Origin: Aneurinibacillus soli
GTDB lineage: Bacteria; Bacillota; Bacilli; Aneurinibacillales; Aneurinibacillaceae
Assembly: GCF_002355375.1 (NCBI RefSeq)
Contig: NZ_AP017312.1
Location: 3,596,501 to 3,660,500, forward strand
DNA: 64,000 nucleotides
Direction: 5' to 3'
The notes below the pieces were generated by a model. It was not told the DNA's origin. It saw nothing but the letters and a program-made list of their open reading frames with translations, and made no database searches. A program made the position numbers and the translations under genes. Positions 6,021-63,312 of this stretch are shown here, piece by piece (position 1 is the stretch's first letter; every line of letters begins with the position of its first letter).

Positions 6021-6073
6021 AAAGAGGCTGTCTCAAACGCTGTAACACAGCGACTGAGGCGGCCTCTTCTTGT
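6021..6073. terminator. Terminator hairpin, GGCTGTCTC family
   Basis: Nested stem: outer AGAGGCTGTCTCA pairs with the TGAGGCGGCCTCT side, inner CGCTGT pairs with ACAGCG. It lies between convergent genes and has an A-run on the left and a T-rich right side. Confidence 0.8.
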
Positions 6074-8449: not shown

Positions 8450-8667
8450 AACCTGCCACCTCCAAAGGAATTTGGACCAAAGCAAAAAAATGCGGACGCA
8501 CTGCGCCCGCATGTATCAATCATTCCATAATGTTACAACTATGGAAGTATCAGATACCTGCTGACAGCTCATCGTGCGTCACGCAGGTGAGAAGCGGGTG
8601 CTCCTGCTTTGGATTCCGTTATTCATTGCACTTTTCATAGTATAGCGCATGATATATGTCACGTCAA
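8450..8667 (-). promoter_or_regulatory. infC operon promoter and attenuating leader (L20-type)
   Basis: A near-consensus promoter: TTGACG (8662-8667), 17-base spacer, TATACT (8639-8644). The ~185-base untranslated leader contains several inverted repeats and, at 8490-8512, a strong GC stem followed by seven Us (8483-8489) well before the infC start. This is the layout of the L20 leader of Bacillota, in which excess ribosomal protein L20 favours premature termination. The terminator and promoter are seen directly; L20 as effector is from the known family. Confidence 0.85.
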
Positions 8668-13258: not shown

Positions 13259-13311
13259 GGAGGATATCTCAAAAGCTGTAACACCGCGGCTGAGGTAGCC
13301 TCTTTTTTCTG
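13259..13311 (+). terminator. Chemoreceptor terminator, GGCTGTCTC family (diverged)
   Basis: Nested stem: GAGGATATCTCA with TGAGGTAGCCTC outside, AGCTGT with GCGGCT inside, then six Ts. The composite repeat of locus A begins 15 bases later. Confidence 0.75.
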
Positions 13312-13995
13312 GGTGGAGGTTTTCGCCAAAGCATAGTGGAGGAGCGGGATCGGGCGGGACCCCGTCACTTCGGTACGCTTACAGAGAAGCTGGGACTGTC
13401 CGCTCCAGGTGCCAGGCGAACTCGCCCACAAAAGGTGTCCGCGATGAAATTGCATCGAAGCATTGTGGGCAAAAGCCCGTTCGCCTGTCTCCTTCCGCTG
13501 GGGAATCGCATACAGGCGTTCCGTTGCCCCGCCCGATCCCGCTCCTGACACAGTTTGGATAAAAACCATCAAGCAATATCAAGAGGCTGAGCTTTGCTAT
13601 GCAGGTAAAAAATAAGGAAGCGATCTTGCGAAAAGCCAGTGGCTACCGAGCAAATCCTTTCTGGCGTTGCATGTTTTTTGTAAACCGAAACGTTGTGCGG
13701 GGAGTGGGAGAAGGAAGGAGTAAGAGAGCGCCTGTACGCGCCTACTCAGTGGAGGGAGAACGACGAACGAGCCTTTGCCCGCAATCCTTCGGTGAATCAA
13801 CATCGTAGGCTTTTCTTACGATTAGTCAAGTGAATCATAATGATTTTGAGTGATTATTTTGTAAGTAACAGGGGGAGGAAGCGGAGAGAAAATAACAGGT
13901 TTCACAGAAAGTATGGATGTTGACATACCAAATAAACCTAGGGTGTTTTTATTTTTTGCTAGGTTTATTTGGTATATGGTATGATAGAAATTGCA

Positions 13996-15213
13996 TTATG
14001 ATCTGGTGGCACACTGGTACTCATAGTGCTGATTGTGTGTAATAAGGTAGAAGAGGCACTTCAAGAGCTTATTTACACAAGCGATCGACGCAACTTTATG
14101 ACACTTGTTATAAGGTTGCGTTTTTACTTTGTCATAGTACTCAACGAGATGGTTGTTCCCGAAACGACGCTGTTTAATCATATTCTGAATGACAAGGTAA
14201 AGCAGTTTACGCAGGTGCTTGTTTCCGCGCTTATTGATTTTATCCTGGAAAAAGGTTTTACCGGACTGGAACCGTCGGATATCAATCCCTGCAAAGGCGT
14301 TGAGCTGTTTCGGATTGTCGAAGCGGCGGATGTCTCCGATTTCGGCGAGTAAACGCACCGCTGTATTTACCCCAATGCCCGGAAAGCTGAGAAGAACTTG
14401 ATAGTCCTCTCGATGCATGCTCATTTCCTCCATTTGCCGAATCAGAGCTTCTCGTTGGCGAAGAATCTCCAAATAACGTTTGACATAGATGCGTAGCTGG
14501 TCACAAAGAACATCGGTTGCGGAAACCGCCGGATACGAGTTCTGTGCGGCTTCAAGCAACTGGATGGCTTTCTTCTCAGCGGTACCTGCCGATAACTTTT
14601 TGTCGGTACTCTTGAGAATCCGGTTTCTGATTACGGTTTTGGAAAGACCGTTCACGAGATCGGGATGTGGAAATAACTGAATGACATGTAAACAGAGCTC
14701 CGATCGGCTTGTAAAGATCGTTTCCAGTTCGGAAAAGGTCAGTTGAATGACTTTATGCATCCGATTGCGAAGAGTAGAAAGTTCTCCGTCTAATTCTTGG
14801 TAAAACCGAGAGAGAGACTTTAGCTGCTGGAAGAAGTCATTGGGTACTTCTTTTTCTCTTCGAGAGACCGTGAAATGAGTCAACGCCAGCCGATGAGCGT
14901 CACTTCGATCCGTTTTATGCATCCGCATAGAAGCGGACTGCAGTTTGGCTTCAAGCGGGTTTAACAGGCAATAGGTGTACTGATGATCTTGCATAAAGCG
15001 TTCCAGTTGTCTGGAGTATACGCCCGTAGCTTCGAAAACAATGGACGGTTGTTCCCCATCTTGCTCGATCAGCTTCTCCATGCAGGCATGCAACCCTTCA
15101 AAATCGGAACGGGTATGCCGGATTTCTCCTTCAAACTCACAGTGCCGGTCGGCATTGTACACCACCCAATAGCTCTTTCCCATACTTACATCAAATGCGA
15201 CTACATGTTTCAT
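13996..15213 (-). CDS. IS110-family transposase (DEDD recombinase), copy A
   Basis: 405 residues. The N-terminal RuvC-like DEDD domain shows Asp8 (AFDVSMGKSYW), Glu61 (VFEATGVYSR), Asp102 and Asp105 (KTDRSDAHRLAL). The C-terminal Transposase_20 domain has SFPGIGVNTAVRLLAEIGD, then RFQSGKTFF with the presumed catalytic serine, and KINKRGNKHLRK. All catalytic positions are present, so the protein should be active. ATG 15213 is chosen over 15252 since AGGAGGAG lies 7 bases upstream. Family members insert with an RNA guide and leave no long target duplication. Confidence 0.95.
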   Translation of the reverse strand: MKHVVAFDVSMGKSYWVVYNADRHCEFEGEIRHTRSDFEGLHACMEKLIEQDGEQPSIVFEATGVYSRQLERFMQDHQYTYCLLNPLEAKLQSASMRMHKTDRSDAHRLALTHFTVSRREKEVPNDFFQQLKSLSRFYQELDGELSTLRNRMHKVIQLTFSELETIFTSRSELCLHVIQLFPHPDLVNGLSKTVIRNRILKSTDKKLSAGTAEKKAIQLLEAAQNSYPAVSATDVLCDQLRIYVKRYLEILRQREALIRQMEEMSMHREDYQVLLSFPGIGVNTAVRLLAEIGDIRRFDNPKQLNAFAGIDIRRFQSGKTFFQDKINKRGNKHLRKLLYLVIQNMIKQRRFGNNHLVEYYDKVKTQPYNKCHKVASIACVNKLLKCLFYLITHNQHYEYQCATRS

Positions 15214-15458
15214 GGTTGTTCTCCTCCTGATGTTCGTTGTAGAAGCCTTCACGCATCCTTATCGATTCCCTTTTCTTATACACGATCTCAATGGATCCAA
15301 CATACTGAAGCTGATTCAAATAAGGGCAGTGAAGTTGGCCTGTTTCTTTGACGGATTCAAGATCCCGAAGCCCACTCGGCCTGTTTCTTCACTTCTACCA
15401 CAAAAAAATAGTAGCACAAACCGTGGCCTTGGTCTGTGCTACTAATCTTAGTATGTTT
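15214..15458 (-). ncRNA. Candidate bridge RNA in the IS110 leader, copy A
   Basis: The 245 bases between the element end and the transposase start are too long for a simple leader and strongly structured. At the 5' end is a 36-base hairpin (15409-15444) with arms TAGTAGCACA and TGTGCTACTA. Next is a stem GTGAAG/CTTCAC enclosing two copies of GAAACAGGCC (complement at 15337-15347 and 15378-15387). The 10-mer TGTTTCTTTG (15341-15350) recurs exactly across the right junction (15454-15463). IS110 elements of one subgroup encode a guide RNA here; the assignment is inference. Confidence 0.45.
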
Positions 15459-15609
15459 CTTTGCGGGCACGTTCGCCGGGCTCCCGTAGCGGACAGCCAC
15501 CACTTCCCTGCAAGCGTACCGAAGCGAACGGCTCCTTCCTTCTCCCACTCCCTCCCCCCACACGTTGTCGATATCACGAAAAAGCTGTCTCACTTTCCAT
15601 GAAATTTAT

Positions 15610-20814: not shown

Positions 20815-20843
20815 TTGATAACGCTTTCATTATGTCTTATAAT
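20815..20843 (+). promoter_or_regulatory. Promoter with overlapping cre (CcpA) site
   Basis: TTGATA (20815-20820), 17-base spacer, TATAAT (20838-20843). The sequence TGATAACGCTTTCA at 20816-20829 fits the cre consensus TGWNANCGNTNWCA at every position and covers the -35 box and spacer, a position where CcpA represses. It drives the RNA at 20850-20941. Confidence 0.72.
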
Positions 20844-20849
20844 AACAGT

Positions 20850-20941
20850 AACCCCCTTAAACGGGTTGACACCTCCTGGAATTGAATTAATCTCTCCACT
20901 CCTACCTTGGGCTCGCTGCTCTGCAGCGGGCCACTTTTTTG
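20850..20941 (+). ncRNA. Candidate CcpA-controlled small regulatory RNA
   Basis: About 92 nt from the predicted start to an intrinsic terminator (stem 20910-20932, GGCTCGCTGC / GCAGCGGGCC, then six Ts). The 5' end can form AACCC/GGGTT with a C-rich loop. The unpaired middle contains CACCTCCTGG and CTCTCCACTCCTACC, that is, several anti-Shine-Dalgarno CCUCC-like motifs as in RoxS/RsaE-type RNAs. There is no start codon with a ribosome binding site and no ORF. Sequence identity with a known RNA is not claimed. Confidence 0.55.
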
Positions 20942-21621
20942 TCTTTTTTACATGCGTTCTCCAAAGTGTGGTGGAGGAGCGGGAGCGGGCGAGGCCTCGT
21001 CACTTCGGTACGCTTACAGAGAAGTGGGAACTGTCCGCTTCAGGTGCCAGACGAACTCGCCCACAAAAGGTGCCTACGATGTATTTCAGAAGAAGCATTG
21101 TGGGCAAAAGCCCGTTTACCTGTCCCCTTCCGCTGGGGAGTCGCGTACAGGCGTTCCGTTGCCCCGCCCGATCCCACTCCTGACACAGTTTGGATGAAAC
21201 TCTTCAAGCATAATCAAGAGGGTGCAGCAGACAAAAAAATAAGGAAGCCTTCTTTCAAAAAGCCAGTGGCAATCGAGCAAATCCGTTCTGGCGTCCGTGT
21301 TTTTTGTAAACCGAAACGTTGTGCGGGGAGCGGGAGAAGGAAGGAGTAAGAGAGCGCCTGTACGCGCCTACTCAGCGGAGGGAGAACGGCGAACAAGCCT
21401 TTGCCCGCAATCCTTCGGTGAATCAACATCGCGGGCTTTTCTTACGATTAGTCAAGTGAATCATAATGATTTTGAGTGATTATTTTGTAAGTAACAGGGG
21501 GAGGAAGCGGAGAGAAAATAACAGGTTTCACAGAAAGTATGGATGTTGACATACCAAATAAACCTAGGGTGTTTTTATTTTTTGCTAGGTTTATTTGGTA
21601 TATGGTATGATAGAAATTGCA

Positions 21622-22839
21622 TTATGATCTGGTGGCACACTGGTACTCATAGTGCTGATTGTGTGTAATAAGGTAGAAGAGGCACTTCAAGAGCTTATTT
21701 ACACAAGCGATCGACGCAACTTTATGACACTTGTTATAAGGTTGCGTTTTTACTTTGTCATAGTACTCAACGAGATGGTTGTTCCCGAAACGACGCTGTT
21801 TAATCATATTCTGAATGACAAGGTAAAGCAGTTTACGCAGGTGCTTGTTTCCGCGCTTATTGATTTTATCCTGGAAAAAGGTTTTACCGGACTGGAACCG
21901 TCGGATATCAATCCCTGCAAAGGCGTTGAGCTGTTTCGGATTGTCGAAGCGGCGGATGTCTCCGATTTCGGCGAGTAAACGCACCGCTGTATTTACCCCA
22001 ATGCCCGGAAAGCTGAGAAGAACTTGATAGTCCTCTCGATGCATGCTCATTTCCTCCATTTGCCGAATCAGAGCTTCTCGTTGGCGAAGAATCTCCAAAT
22101 AACGTTTGACATAGATGCGTAGCTGGTCACAAAGAACATCGGTTGCGGAAACCGCCGGATACGAGTTCTGTGCGGCTTCAAGCAACTGGATGGCTTTCTT
22201 CTCAGCGGTACCTGCCGATAACTTTTTGTCGGTACTCTTGAGAATCCGGTTTCTGATTACGGTTTTGGAAAGACCGTTCACGAGATCGGGATGTGGAAAT
22301 AACTGAATGACATGTAAACAGAGCTCCGATCGGCTTGTAAAGATCGTTTCCAGTTCGGAAAAGGTCAGTTGAATGACTTTATGCATCCGATTGCGAAGAG
22401 TAGAAAGTTCTCCGTCTAATTCTTGGTAAAACCGAGAGAGAGACTTTAGCTGCTGGAAGAAGTCATTGGGTACTTCTTTTTCTCTTCGAGAGACCGTGAA
22501 ATGAGTCAACGCCAGCCGATGAGCGTCACTTCGATCCGTTTTATGCATCCGCATAGAAGCGGACTGCAGTTTGGCTTCAAGCGGGTTTAACAGGCAATAG
22601 GTGTACTGATGATCTTGCATAAAGCGTTCCAGTTGTCTGGAGTATACGCCCGTAGCTTCGAAAACAATGGACGGTTGTTCCCCATCTTGCTCGATCAGCT
22701 TCTCCATGCAGGCATGCAACCCTTCAAAATCGGAACGGGTATGCCGGATTTCTCCTTCAAACTCACAGTGCCGGTCGGCATTGTACACCACCCAATAGCT
22801 CTTTCCCATACTTACATCAAATGCGACTACATGTTTCAT
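21622..22839 (-). CDS. IS110-family transposase (DEDD recombinase), copy B
   Basis: 405 residues, identical to the protein at 13996-15213: Asp8, Glu61, Asp102, Asp105 and the C-terminal QSG serine motif are all present, with no frameshift. ATG 22839 follows AGGAGGAG. The identity points to recent movement. Confidence 0.95.
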   Translation of the reverse strand: MKHVVAFDVSMGKSYWVVYNADRHCEFEGEIRHTRSDFEGLHACMEKLIEQDGEQPSIVFEATGVYSRQLERFMQDHQYTYCLLNPLEAKLQSASMRMHKTDRSDAHRLALTHFTVSRREKEVPNDFFQQLKSLSRFYQELDGELSTLRNRMHKVIQLTFSELETIFTSRSELCLHVIQLFPHPDLVNGLSKTVIRNRILKSTDKKLSAGTAEKKAIQLLEAAQNSYPAVSATDVLCDQLRIYVKRYLEILRQREALIRQMEEMSMHREDYQVLLSFPGIGVNTAVRLLAEIGDIRRFDNPKQLNAFAGIDIRRFQSGKTFFQDKINKRGNKHLRKLLYLVIQNMIKQRRFGNNHLVEYYDKVKTQPYNKCHKVASIACVNKLLKCLFYLITHNQHYEYQCATRS

Positions 22840-23084
22840 GGTTGTTCTCCTCCTGATGTTCGTTGTAGAAGCCTTCACGCATCCTTATCGATTCCCTTTT
22901 CTTATACACGATCTCAATGGATCCAACATACTGAAGCTGATTCAAATAAGGGCAGTGAAGTTGGCCTGTTTCTTTGACGGATTCAAGATCCCGAAGCCCA
23001 CTCGGCCTGTTTCTTCACTTCTACCACAAAAAAATAGTAGCACAAACCGTGGCCTTGGTCTGTGCTACTAATCTTAGTATGTTT
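22840..23084 (-). ncRNA. Candidate bridge RNA in the IS110 leader, copy B
   Basis: Same 245-base structured leader as in copy A, with the 36-base hairpin at 23035-23070 and the two GAAACAGGCC repeats. The junction 10-mer TGTTTCTTTG occurs again both in the leader and across the right end (23080-23089). Confidence 0.42.
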
Positions 23085-23205: not shown

Positions 23206-23256
23206 AAAAAAGAGGCCGTCCCGTTCGCCATGTTCTGGCTTTTAGGACAGCCTGTT
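23206..23256 (-). terminator. Terminator hairpin after the cysA remnant
   Basis: AGAGGCCGTCCCG pairs with the TTAGGACAGCCTG side; A-run at 23206-23211 gives the U-tract on the minus strand. Same family as 17521 and 63264. Confidence 0.7.
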
Positions 23257-26230: not shown

Positions 26231-26400
26231 AAAAAGCGACCCCTATTGAGATAAGAGGTCGCCCGCAATAAACAATGTCGGTTCTCCCTCTTATCTATCG
26301 GATTGTGCATCCGCTGGAATTAGCACCTTTTGAATCATCAATGGTTGCCGAGGCTTCGTCGGGCCAGTCCCTCCGCCTCTCTGGATAAGAGTCTTGCTAG
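26231..26400 (-). promoter_or_regulatory. SAM-I (S-box) riboswitch with terminator
   Basis: Aptamer 26288-26391: P1 arms CTCTTATC and GATAAGAG, core AGAGGCGGAGGGACTGGCCC, GAAGCCTCGGCAACC, AAGGTGCTAATTCCAGC, all matching the S-box consensus. The terminator is GCGACC..GGTCGC with five Us (26231-26262). Its 5' half contains CCTCTTATC, which can pair instead with GATAAGAGG of P1 to form the antiterminator. High S-adenosylmethionine should turn the operon off. Confidence 0.95.
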
Positions 26401-40061: not shown

Positions 40062-40150
40062 TCAACCACGTCCCATCTCTTTCCCATTCGAAAGTATGTA
40101 TGGTGTTATCATACCATACACTTTTTGTTGAATCGACCACGCTTGGATTC

Positions 40151-40198
40151 AAAAAAAGCGATCTCACTCGTCATCGTAGACGTTTGGAGATCGCTCTT
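40151..40198 (-). terminator. Terminator after the SPFH gene
   Basis: GAGCGATCTC and GAGATCGCT pair around a 20-base loop, followed by seven Us on the minus strand; it separates the SPFH gene from polA. Confidence 0.87.
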
Positions 40199-61405: not shown

Positions 61406-62629
61406 ATGGAAGCAACTGCAACTTCAAAAAACGAACGCCTATTTTCTCTTGATAGTATCCGTGGATTCGCTCTGCTCGGAATTTTTCTTGTGAACATGCC
61501 CGCTTTTCATTCACCTGATTTTATTCGACAACTATATACACTGCCCGAGCACCTTTCCCCACTTGACCAGGAAATTCGGTTATTCTTTGACCTTTTTATT
61601 CAAACAAAATTTTATACGATCTTCTCATTTTTATTCGGCCTTGGTTTCTATATTTTCATGAATCGTGCCGAACAGCGCGGCAACAACATGTACAAGCTGT
61701 TTTCCCGCCGTCTGTGTATTCTGCTTGTTTTCGGCCTGGCTCATCTTATTTTTCTCTGGTTCGGGGATATTCTTCATCTGTATGCGCTGGTTGGATTTTT
61801 ACTGATATTGTTTTACAAGCGAAGTAATGCAACCATTCTTGGCTGGGCATTCGGTCTATTGATTTTGTATTATGGACTATTCTCACTTCAACTACTTATT
61901 GATCCAGCTTCCCTTCTCGCATCGCAGAAAGCAGGCGCCAAGAAGCTGGTGGAAGCCGTACGGATGTATCAGGATGCCTCCTATACGGAGTGGTTAGCTT
62001 ATCGGATAAACACAGAAGTTCTCTATATTCTGGATGGCGTTCTACTACAGATTCCAGCCATTCTTCCGCTGTTTTTATTTGGCTTGTATGCCGGACGGCG
62101 CAGAATTTTTCAGGAACCGGCCCGCAATCAAACATTTGTGAAACGGGTCTGGGCAGTAAGCTTTCTGCTCAGCGTACCTTTTACGATCTGGGCTGCACTT
62201 GTTCATACGGGTTTCTTCGGTGGCACAACACAGCCGTTCCTACAAGATTTAACCATTAGCCTGAACGGGTTACCCCTTTGCTTCTTTTACATGTCATCAC
62301 TTGTTCTACTGCTGGATAAACAGCGCTGGCAGAAGTGGCTTCGTCCGCTTGGATTCACCGGACAGATGGCACTAACCAACTATTTGATGCAAACCGTTCT
62401 GTCTTTAGCTATCATATTCGGGTTCGGGCTGTTTAACCGCATGAGTCTGACAGCAGGTCTTCTGCTCTGTCTTGTTTTGTATGCTGGAGAAGTCTGGTTC
62501 AGTTCGTTCTGGCTCAGACGTTTTTATTTCGGTCCGGCCGAATGGCTCTGGCGTACGCTGACATACGGGCAGATACAGCCATTCAGGCGTCCGCATGTAA
62601 TAGGGGAAGAAAAAGCGGAGAGGACGTAG
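61406..62629 (+). CDS. DUF418-family membrane protein
   Basis: 407 residues, about ten membrane segments. N-terminal SLDSIRGFALLGIFLVNMPAF and the C-terminal DUF418 region (GFTGQMALTNYLMQTVLSLAII, PFRRP) identify the family; it is related to acyltransferase-3-like membrane proteins such as YeiB/YxaH. Function unknown. GAGGAGA precedes the ATG. The stop overlaps the left part of a terminator-like sequence, and repeat locus C begins 40 bases later. Confidence 0.9.
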   Translation: MEATATSKNERLFSLDSIRGFALLGIFLVNMPAFHSPDFIRQLYTLPEHLSPLDQEIRLFFDLFIQTKFYTIFSFLFGLGFYIFMNRAEQRGNNMYKLFSRRLCILLVFGLAHLIFLWFGDILHLYALVGFLLILFYKRSNATILGWAFGLLILYYGLFSLQLLIDPASLLASQKAGAKKLVEAVRMYQDASYTEWLAYRINTEVLYILDGVLLQIPAILPLFLFGLYAGRRRIFQEPARNQTFVKRVWAVSFLLSVPFTIWAALVHTGFFGGTTQPFLQDLTISLNGLPLCFFYMSSLVLLLDKQRWQKWLRPLGFTGQMALTNYLMQTVLSLAIIFGFGLFNRMSLTAGLLLCLVLYAGEVWFSSFWLRRFYFGPAEWLWRTLTYGQIQPFRRPHVIGEEKAERT

Positions 62630-62655
62630 CGACTGAGACAGCCTCTGCTTTCTTG
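62619..62655 (+). terminator. Degenerate terminator, GGCTGTCTC family
   Basis: Only the right half, GCGACTGAGACAGCCTCTGCTTTC, matches the family; the left half is replaced by the end of the DUF418 frame. The surviving stem is AGAGG/CCTCT, so termination is doubtful. Confidence 0.4.
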
Positions 62656-62668
62656 GTGGAAGATTTAT

Positions 62669-63258
62669 CCAAAGTGTGGTGGAGGAGTAGGATCGGGCGG
62701 GACCTCGTCACTTCGGTACGCTCGCTAAGGGGTGAGACTGTCCGCTCCAGGTGCCAGACGAACTTGCCCACAAAAGGTGCCCGCGATGTATTTGCAGCGA
62801 AGTATTGTGGGCAAAAGCCCGTTCGCCTGGCGCCTTCCTCTGGGGAGTCACGTACAGGCGTTCCGTTGCCCCGCCCGATCCCACTCCTGACACCGTTTGG
62901 ATGAAAAGCCTCAAGCATAATCAAGAGGCTGAGCTTTGCTATGCAGGAATAAAGGAAGCCGTCTTTCAAAAAAAAGTCAGTTGCGACCCGAGCAAATCCG
63001 TTCTGGCGGTGAGTGGCGAAACGTTGTGCGGGGAGCGGGAGAAGGAAGGAGTAAGAGAGCGCCTGTACGCGCTTACTCAGCGGAGGGAGAACGGCGAATG
63101 AGCCTTTGCCCGCAATCCTTCGGTGAATCAACATCGTAGGCTTTTCTTAGCGGGCACGTTCGCCGGGCTCCCGGAGCGGACAGCCATCGCTTCCCTGCAA
63201 GCGTACCGAAGCGAACAGCTCCTTCCTTCTCACGCTCCCTCACCACTACACGTTGTCG
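62669..63258. repeat. Composite palindromic repeat, locus C (uninterrupted)
   Basis: Unit 1 is 62669-62900 (232 bp), spacer 116 bases, unit 2 is 63017-63258 (242 bp). Unit 2 is the same element as unit 1 turned round: its complement shares the CTTCGGTACGCTT..CAG..GAAGC and CTGTCCGCTC segments with the left arm of unit 1. This copy has no insertion: CATCGTAGGCTTTTCTTA runs directly into GCGGGCACGTTCGCC at 63148-63149, the point where copies A and B hold IS110. It lies between convergent DUF418 (+) and pirin (-) genes. Confidence 0.87.
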
Positions 63259-63263
63259 ATACC

Positions 63264-63312
63264 ACGAAAAGTCTGTCCTGTTCGCCATGTTCTGACTTGT
63301 GGGACAGCCTTT
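63264..63312 (-). terminator. Terminator hairpin after the pirin gene
   Basis: GTCTGTCC..TTCGCCATGTTCTGACTT..GGGACAGCC nested stem; same family as 17521 and 23206. Confidence 0.6.

Follow-up and report, generated by a model that had tools for sequence, protein, structure and literature searches.

REP/BIME elements bind gyrase or other nucleoid proteins, and how REP-type repeats persist at the 3′ ends of genes in many bacteria is an unsettled question that the repeat described here addresses. Single REP units are 20–40 bp long, and the part of the literature drawn on here describes REP/BIME as inverted palindromic units that are intergenic, lie mostly between tandem or convergent genes and are found near 3′ ends (PMC3733652). 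REPINs, as presented in the sections used of a second source, are non-autonomous inverted doublets with a spacer that form a hairpin in single-stranded DNA (ssDNA) or mRNA (PMC3116915), and they are linked to a RAYT tyrosine transposase. Other stem-loop repeat families, such as bcr1, are dispersed, structured, lineage-restricted and intergenic; 67 of 92 such families are 31–200 bp long, and no paired plan with terminators was found for them in the sections used of PMC2267715. The repeat studied here shares the inverted, intergenic, behind-gene units of REP/BIME, the hairpin-forming doublet of REPINs and the dispersal of the stem-loop families. However, its units of ∼235 bp are far longer than those of REPs and REPINs, they are paired, and two-way terminators lie at its ends. 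By unit size the repeat is not a member of REP/BIME, and by the missing RAYT link it is not a REPIN.

The window, a stretch of 64,000 nucleotides, covers positions 3,596,501–3,660,500 of the 4,116,770-bp chromosome of Aneurinibacillus soli (G000), which was compared with the genome of a sister species (G006). Its locus C (62669–63258) consists of two imperfect palindromes with a spacer between them. The minus strand is the favoured folded strand of the first, P1 (62669–62901), as indicated by the palindrome, folding and wobble bias, while the plus strand is favoured in the second, P2 (63018–63258), where compensatory changes add to the same kinds of evidence; the spacer (62902–63017) has a mean column conservation of 0.86. 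Across the family, P1 and P2 of ∼235 bp each are arranged in inverted order around a conserved spacer of ∼120 bp, which gives a core of ∼600 bp. Since P1 is 62–64% identical to the reverse complement of P2, the two units are homologous and inverted. When folded as ssDNA, each half of locus C reached a z-score of −5.3 (0 of 200 shuffles as good), and the 590 bases folded as RNA reached −10.3 (0 of 100 shuffles as good). Per-column conservation of the core was 0.86–0.92 in an alignment made without the divergent copy 2149069. The preliminary description of this DNA had recognised two ∼235-bp imperfect palindromes with a conserved spacer at three loci, A, B and C, and had seen no credible protein in them. 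Both points are borne out: A and B match C, no reading frame is conserved, and the longest run between two stop codons, for which 50 copies give a median of 111 aa, does not go beyond the expectation from shuffled copies (102 aa), which disposes of a protein-coding explanation. Neither locus C nor the core matched a known structured RNA family in Rfam up to an E-value of 1, and a consensus search of the spacer of locus C revealed no sigma-70-like promoter. Plasmid or phage cargo was dropped as an explanation because the repeat had no match in either the plasmid or the phage collection, collections that may omit near records.

When 29 full copies were aligned together with 60 bp of either flank, most were seen to extend outward into a hairpin with a T-run. 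This hairpin, TERM, has the form GAGGCTGTCYC...GRGACAGCCTC followed by a T-run, occurs at both ends and serves the neighbour on each side; judged by its sequence, TERM is a two-way intrinsic terminator, and the full plan of the element is TERM–P1–spacer–P2–TERM. The plus- and minus-strand terminators that had been noted on either side of the repeat are thus present, but they are mostly the repeat's own TERMs and not separate from it. At locus C the flanking genes are convergent (DUF418 on the plus strand, pirin on the minus strand). Its left TERM is represented by the right half, arm and T-run (62629–62653, plus strand; assigned from the sequence and the 29-copy alignment), and is devoid of the left arm where the DUF418 gene ends. 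The right TERM hairpin (63271–63309, minus strand) is the predicted terminator of the pirin gene, as indicated by the sequence, the alignment and the TERM pattern. A TERM profile, built like the mutual-information analysis below without copy 2149069, detected 66 TERMs in 370 kb of A. soli and 62 in 605 kb of the sister species, of which 59 and 50, respectively, lie near a core. Per locus, TERM was present on both sides at 21, on one side at 15 and on neither side at 9 of the 45 A. soli loci examined (36 with at least one), and at 14, 17 and 15 of 46 loci in the sister species (31 with at least one). A 27-base TERM pattern had 65 matches in A. soli and 44 in the sister species, and nine further genomes of the family gave no match, so TERM and core share their distribution. 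One TERM in the window stands alone, without a core (6021–6066).

The repeat had been reported as occurring three times, whereas by our count the 4.12-Mb chromosome carries it at about 88 loci, and the sister species has many copies too. A first set of 45 loci was obtained by scoring 40 of 141 candidates from a genome search and reading around these. In addition, A. soli has 159 matches, with at most one mismatch, to a 14-base piece that P1 and P2 share (reversed control: 0). Reading 37 more stretches, most of them around listed matches to this piece outside the first set, yielded 47 segments; merging three pairs split by an IS110 element and dropping one segment already counted left 43 loci, a second set that was thus taken from among the matches listed. 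Hits below 74–76% identity were dropped. The sister species had 107 matches and at least 46 loci that were read, counts that are lower bounds because about 40 candidates were scored per genome. Elsewhere in the genus there were 1, 3 and 5 matches in G001, G002 and G003, respectively, and none in G004 and G005; 700 bases of G002 recur without a difference in a contig of A. danicus NBRC 102444. In an order-wide search of 15 genomes from 7 genera, matches at E 1e-5 were confined to Aneurinibacillus (4 of the 15 genomes). Of two pattern searches of genome contigs, the first returned no stretches and the second four, three from A. danicus and one from Clostridiales, the last of which was read as a chance match. 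Among the papers listed by searches of an open-licence library, we recognised none as describing this paired repeat.

Loci A and B are 85% identical to C over ∼500 bases, and 84–88% over the last ∼150. They are 2.2 kb long because an identical 1,642-bp IS110 element interrupts P2 in each. Locus A comprises a left TERM (13260–13309, plus strand), P1 (13326–13559, minus), the spacer (13560–13687) and P2 in two parts (13688–13816 and 15459–15570, plus) around the IS110 element (13817–15458, transposase on the minus strand). Locus B comprises P1 (20961–21195, minus), the spacer (21196–21314), P2 (21315–21442 and 23085–23198, plus) around the second IS110 copy (21443–23084, minus) and a right TERM (23212–23253, minus); P1 and spacer of both loci were assigned by their match to C. 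For the genes at A and B we keep the names given in the earlier reading. At locus B, the nearest left ORF that we found is on the minus strand, and the plus strand has only a putative small RNA. This candidate (20820–20945) has a promoter-like TTGATA...TATAAT and a strong terminator, is closely kept in the sister species and is without an Rfam match.

The search for IS110 covered stretches that had been chosen around the repeat. Those of A. soli contain seven identical copies, each inserted at the same position within P2, whereas those read from the sister species contain none. Their surroundings suggest that insertion occurs at CT. The 5′ non-coding part of the element has two 8-base matches to the lower strand of the P2 target and its 3′ part one 8-base match to the upper strand; these three guide candidates were discounted as too short to count. 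Site-specific insertion into a palindromic repeat is known behaviour of IS110 types that target REPs, namely IS621, ISPa11 and ISPpu9/10, according to the sections used of PMC1525189 and PMC11187229. This likeness bears on the insertion sequence inside loci A and B and not on the repeat itself. Seven identical copies at a single point of P2 do offer a ready-made case for testing whether IS110 targeting is guided.

The position of the repeat relative to genes was determined with a simple ORF caller based on codon usage, which classed 44 of 45 first-set and 37 of 43 second-set loci and which errs at times (locus C came out as convergent in one run and as tandem in another, convergent being right). 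The stop codon nearest to the core lay at a median distance of 71 bp for 89 loci of both species, and of 62 bp for 36 second-set segments. In the first set 17 loci were convergent, 26 tandem, 1 divergent and 1 unclear; in the second set, with split segments merged, the numbers were 14, 19, 4 and 6, and in the sister species 15 loci were convergent, 31 tandem and none divergent. Intergenic length in the stretches read predicts 14% convergent and 23% divergent sites. Compared with this expectation, the pooled A. soli loci (n = 81 classed; 45 tandem) showed a convergent excess (31/81, P-value 2.6e-8) and a divergent deficit (5/81, P-value 3.4e-5), both of which were also seen in the second set alone (P-values 2e-4 and 0.04). 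The repeat was thus enriched at convergent gene ends, but the claim that it always lies between convergent transcripts did not hold: it follows closely on the end of a gene, and convergent sites are more frequent than expected. The comparison with BIME/REP made in the preliminary description is supported by the inverted pairs, the loci that look like P1/P1 or P2/P2 pairs, the behind-gene sites and the targeting by IS110, and the high copy number, the convergent enrichment and the lack of a conserved frame all agree with it; strictly convergent placement and separate terminators do not stand.

Selection on the folded structure was studied in alignments of 46 full copies. In P2, 97.9% of cells were paired, a figure that is inflated as the structure was taken from the same alignment. 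Changes on both sides were found for 15 of 47 P2 pairs, compared to 5.8 in shuffled alignments, and there were 44 double-change cells versus 11.4 after shuffling and 6–14 when the structure was slid. For P1, RNAalifold gave a weaker and different consensus fold with 5 double-change pairs, so the covariance of the palindromes is well supported for P2 and less so for P1. Wobble pairs were counted in the Watson-Crick structure of each consensus, at pairs that were at least 80% paired. In P2, G-T combinations exceeded A-C (115 versus 43 cells; 32 versus 13 pairs, P-value 0.007), whereas in P1 the bias was reversed (45 versus 101 cells; 10 versus 34 pairs, P-value 0.0004), and the direction was the same in A. 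soli and the sister species taken singly. It thus seems that the strand under selection, as a folded single strand, is the plus strand in P2 and the minus strand in P1, as expected of two homologous hairpins in inverted order. Mutational bias is thought to be an unlikely cause, since unpaired sites were unbiased in P2 and only weakly biased in P1 (G>A 0.115, C>T 0.088), where A>G versus T>C runs against the trend. The wobble bias fits RNA and ssDNA equally. Of the options raised earlier for this DNA, both a mobile element and a structure formed by a single strand (RNA or ssDNA) have gained support.

Site comparison for the 45 first-set loci showed that 17 are occupied in the sister species and 18 empty, while 10 were not located in the stretches fetched. 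Among the shared sites 16 of 17 have the same orientation, and one is flipped (L053 at 2072304 in G000 versus L085 at 1615314 in G006). The clearest empty site is that of locus B (3617461), where the sister species reads from GTTCT directly into CAAAAAA and A. soli has the core in between, at the A-run of TERM; from these sequences the insertion looks clean. At 3148420, 2771662, 2773818 and 2470317 the sister species has, as seen by eye, an unrelated hairpin terminator and no visible scar, and at 2183328 and 3018389 no terminator was seen by eye. Other sequence and an unrelated terminator take the place of locus C in the sister species. At 3430823, 1995304, 2049015 and 2800755 the sister species has one TERM and no core, so that loss and gain are indistinguishable there. 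For 3430823, inspection by eye of the outgroups G002, G004 and G005 showed that each has an unrelated two-way terminator of its own a short way past the stop codon, which makes the TERM family a newcomer at that site; as judged by eye, the right terminator of the element fits the local terminator in its outer arm and the common TERM in its inner arm. The reverse situation occurs in the window at 40074–40184, a probable scar where both boundary motifs are joined and followed by a TERM-like hairpin. Without gaps, this hairpin agrees at 26 of 37 bases with the TERM of the sister species, where a full copy occupies the site. No clear or consistent target duplication was seen by eye at the insertion sites inspected. 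At G006 2672604–2673066 (L091), an ORF, glyoxalase-like by eye only, replaces the copy found at 3202056 in A. soli, and only the boundary motif and TERM on its right are retained.

Several copies stop near the start of P2 or miss its inner part, and others are without P1. In the one case inspected (G006 1607530), P2 is flanked by ACGTTGT direct repeats, and the deletion runs from one to the other. A few loci (1180792, 1052791 and 2908508) look like P1/P1 or P2/P2 pairs, although at 70–90% identity one of the two may be a diverged unit of the opposite type. Sequence similarity between copies was compared for 50 copies of 480–640 bp with >79% identity. Mean core identity was 0.859 for orthologous copies, 0.839 for non-orthologous copies between species and 0.847 within A. 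soli; four of nine orthologous core pairs ranked first or second, and the other five ranked 18 to 43 of 49. The 75-bp flanks behaved differently, with 0.843 identity for orthologous versus 0.641 for other left flanks (rank 1 in 9 of 14) and 0.815 versus 0.657 for right flanks (rank 1 in 8 of 11). The sites are thus inherited, yet the cores are mostly no more alike between orthologues. Mutual information between variable columns was 0.156 at 1–5 bp (null 0.052), 0.050 at 80–160 bp (null 0.044) and no higher than the null beyond 160 bp. Short-tract conversion among copies would explain both the mixing of cores and the short range of the mutual information; alternatively, free sites may be saturated under strong constraint.

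In the relatives G001–G003 only single units or parts were found, outside the paired plan. The end of an A. danicus unit matches a degenerate ISL3 element of the sister species with 86% identity over 36 bp (E 4.6e-5; small search set), and unit ends of G002 and G003 agree with the ISL3-like end at 22 and 23 of 27 bases. The paired A. soli elements have no clear ISL3 ends on their outside, so for them the likely descent from an ISL3-type MITE is deduced from the single units of the relatives. ISL3 elements make 8-bp target duplications. Unlike what is expected of ISL3 MITEs, no autonomous partner was found: A. soli had no match for an ISL3 transposase, and the only match in the sister species is broken by stops. 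An ISL3 gene near a palindrome in G002 (L167) was discarded as a candidate, as the palindrome is a separate unit nearby and no inverted repeats were found around the gene. A RAYT partner was likewise rejected, since the two Y1_Tnp genes of A. soli and the one of the sister species have no repeat unit within ∼1.5 kb on either side. At four loci of G002/A. danicus (L065, L070, L114 and L116) a hairpin around GAAAAAGGCCTTCGCCTTTTTC is inserted in the apex of a single unit, forming a nested repeat.

With a probability of about 0.5, we regard the repeat as a giant, non-autonomous REPIN/BIME-like element that is wrapped in TERMs, homogenised by recombination and tolerated as a supply of terminators, with no demonstrated host function. 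Its units would descend from an ISL3-type MITE, and in this lineage they would have become a paired, terminator-wrapped element that replaces ordinary terminators at gene ends. Each unit would be, or have been, used in folded single-stranded form by a trans-acting factor, either as ssDNA in transposition or as RNA, while short ectopic gene conversion would keep the copies alike. Bringing its own two-way terminators to gene ends would make such an element nearly harmless and explain why its insertion there is tolerated. Against this reading it counts that the searches for an enzyme and for a clear target duplication found neither, that P1 has a weaker fold and a slight bias at its unpaired sites too, and that four second-set loci are divergent, and the four orthologous cores that do rank first or second count against core mixing. 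The outward direction of the favoured strands from the conserved spacer, together with the compensatory changes and G-U tolerance of P2, would also suit a pair of structured RNAs that function as transcripts, one read leftward and the other rightward out of the spacer. This is unlikely, as locus C has no sigma-70-like consensus promoter, Rfam gave no match up to E 1, units are deleted in several copies, and ssDNA accounts for the wobble bias equally well.

The history of the sites bears on the remaining explanations. We consider it quite unlikely that the repeat spreads from terminator to terminator by recombination and not by a transposase, with TERMs as the homology for ectopic conversion, host terminators being swapped and the units kept as folded single strands of opposite polarity; this would predict the hybrid right terminator at 3430823, the flipped shared site and the mixing of cores. 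The sharing of 17 sites, all but one with unchanged orientation, and the many deletion forms (P2 lost between ACGTTGT repeats, lone TERMs as scars) could be taken as signs of a static family that was formed before the species split and is now decaying by deletion while recombination homogenises it. The clean insertion at 3617461 and the four sister sites with an unrelated terminator and no scar make this very doubtful. Least probable among the readings weighed here is a host-selected two-way insulator or supercoil-relief site between transcription units, along the lines of the gyrase idea for BIMEs. Placement behind genes with a convergent excess, retention of the shared sites, all but one in the same orientation, and the per-column conservation of the core agree with it, but 18 of 35 located sites are empty in the sister species, where plain terminators serve at several of them, as they do in the outgroups at the one site checked, and the wobble asymmetry favours single strands over duplex DNA. 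Under the preferred reading of a tolerated, terminator-wrapped element, this is a Firmicute repeat with the logic of REPs and units several times longer, in which strand-specific selection, scars, deletions and conversion can be read. As the two sister species have many sites in common and many that only one of them occupies, gain, loss and conversion can be measured. Besides the repeat, Rfam searches of the window detected an ordinary SAM riboswitch (26288–26391) and an ordinary L20 leader (8478–8615), both on the minus strand.
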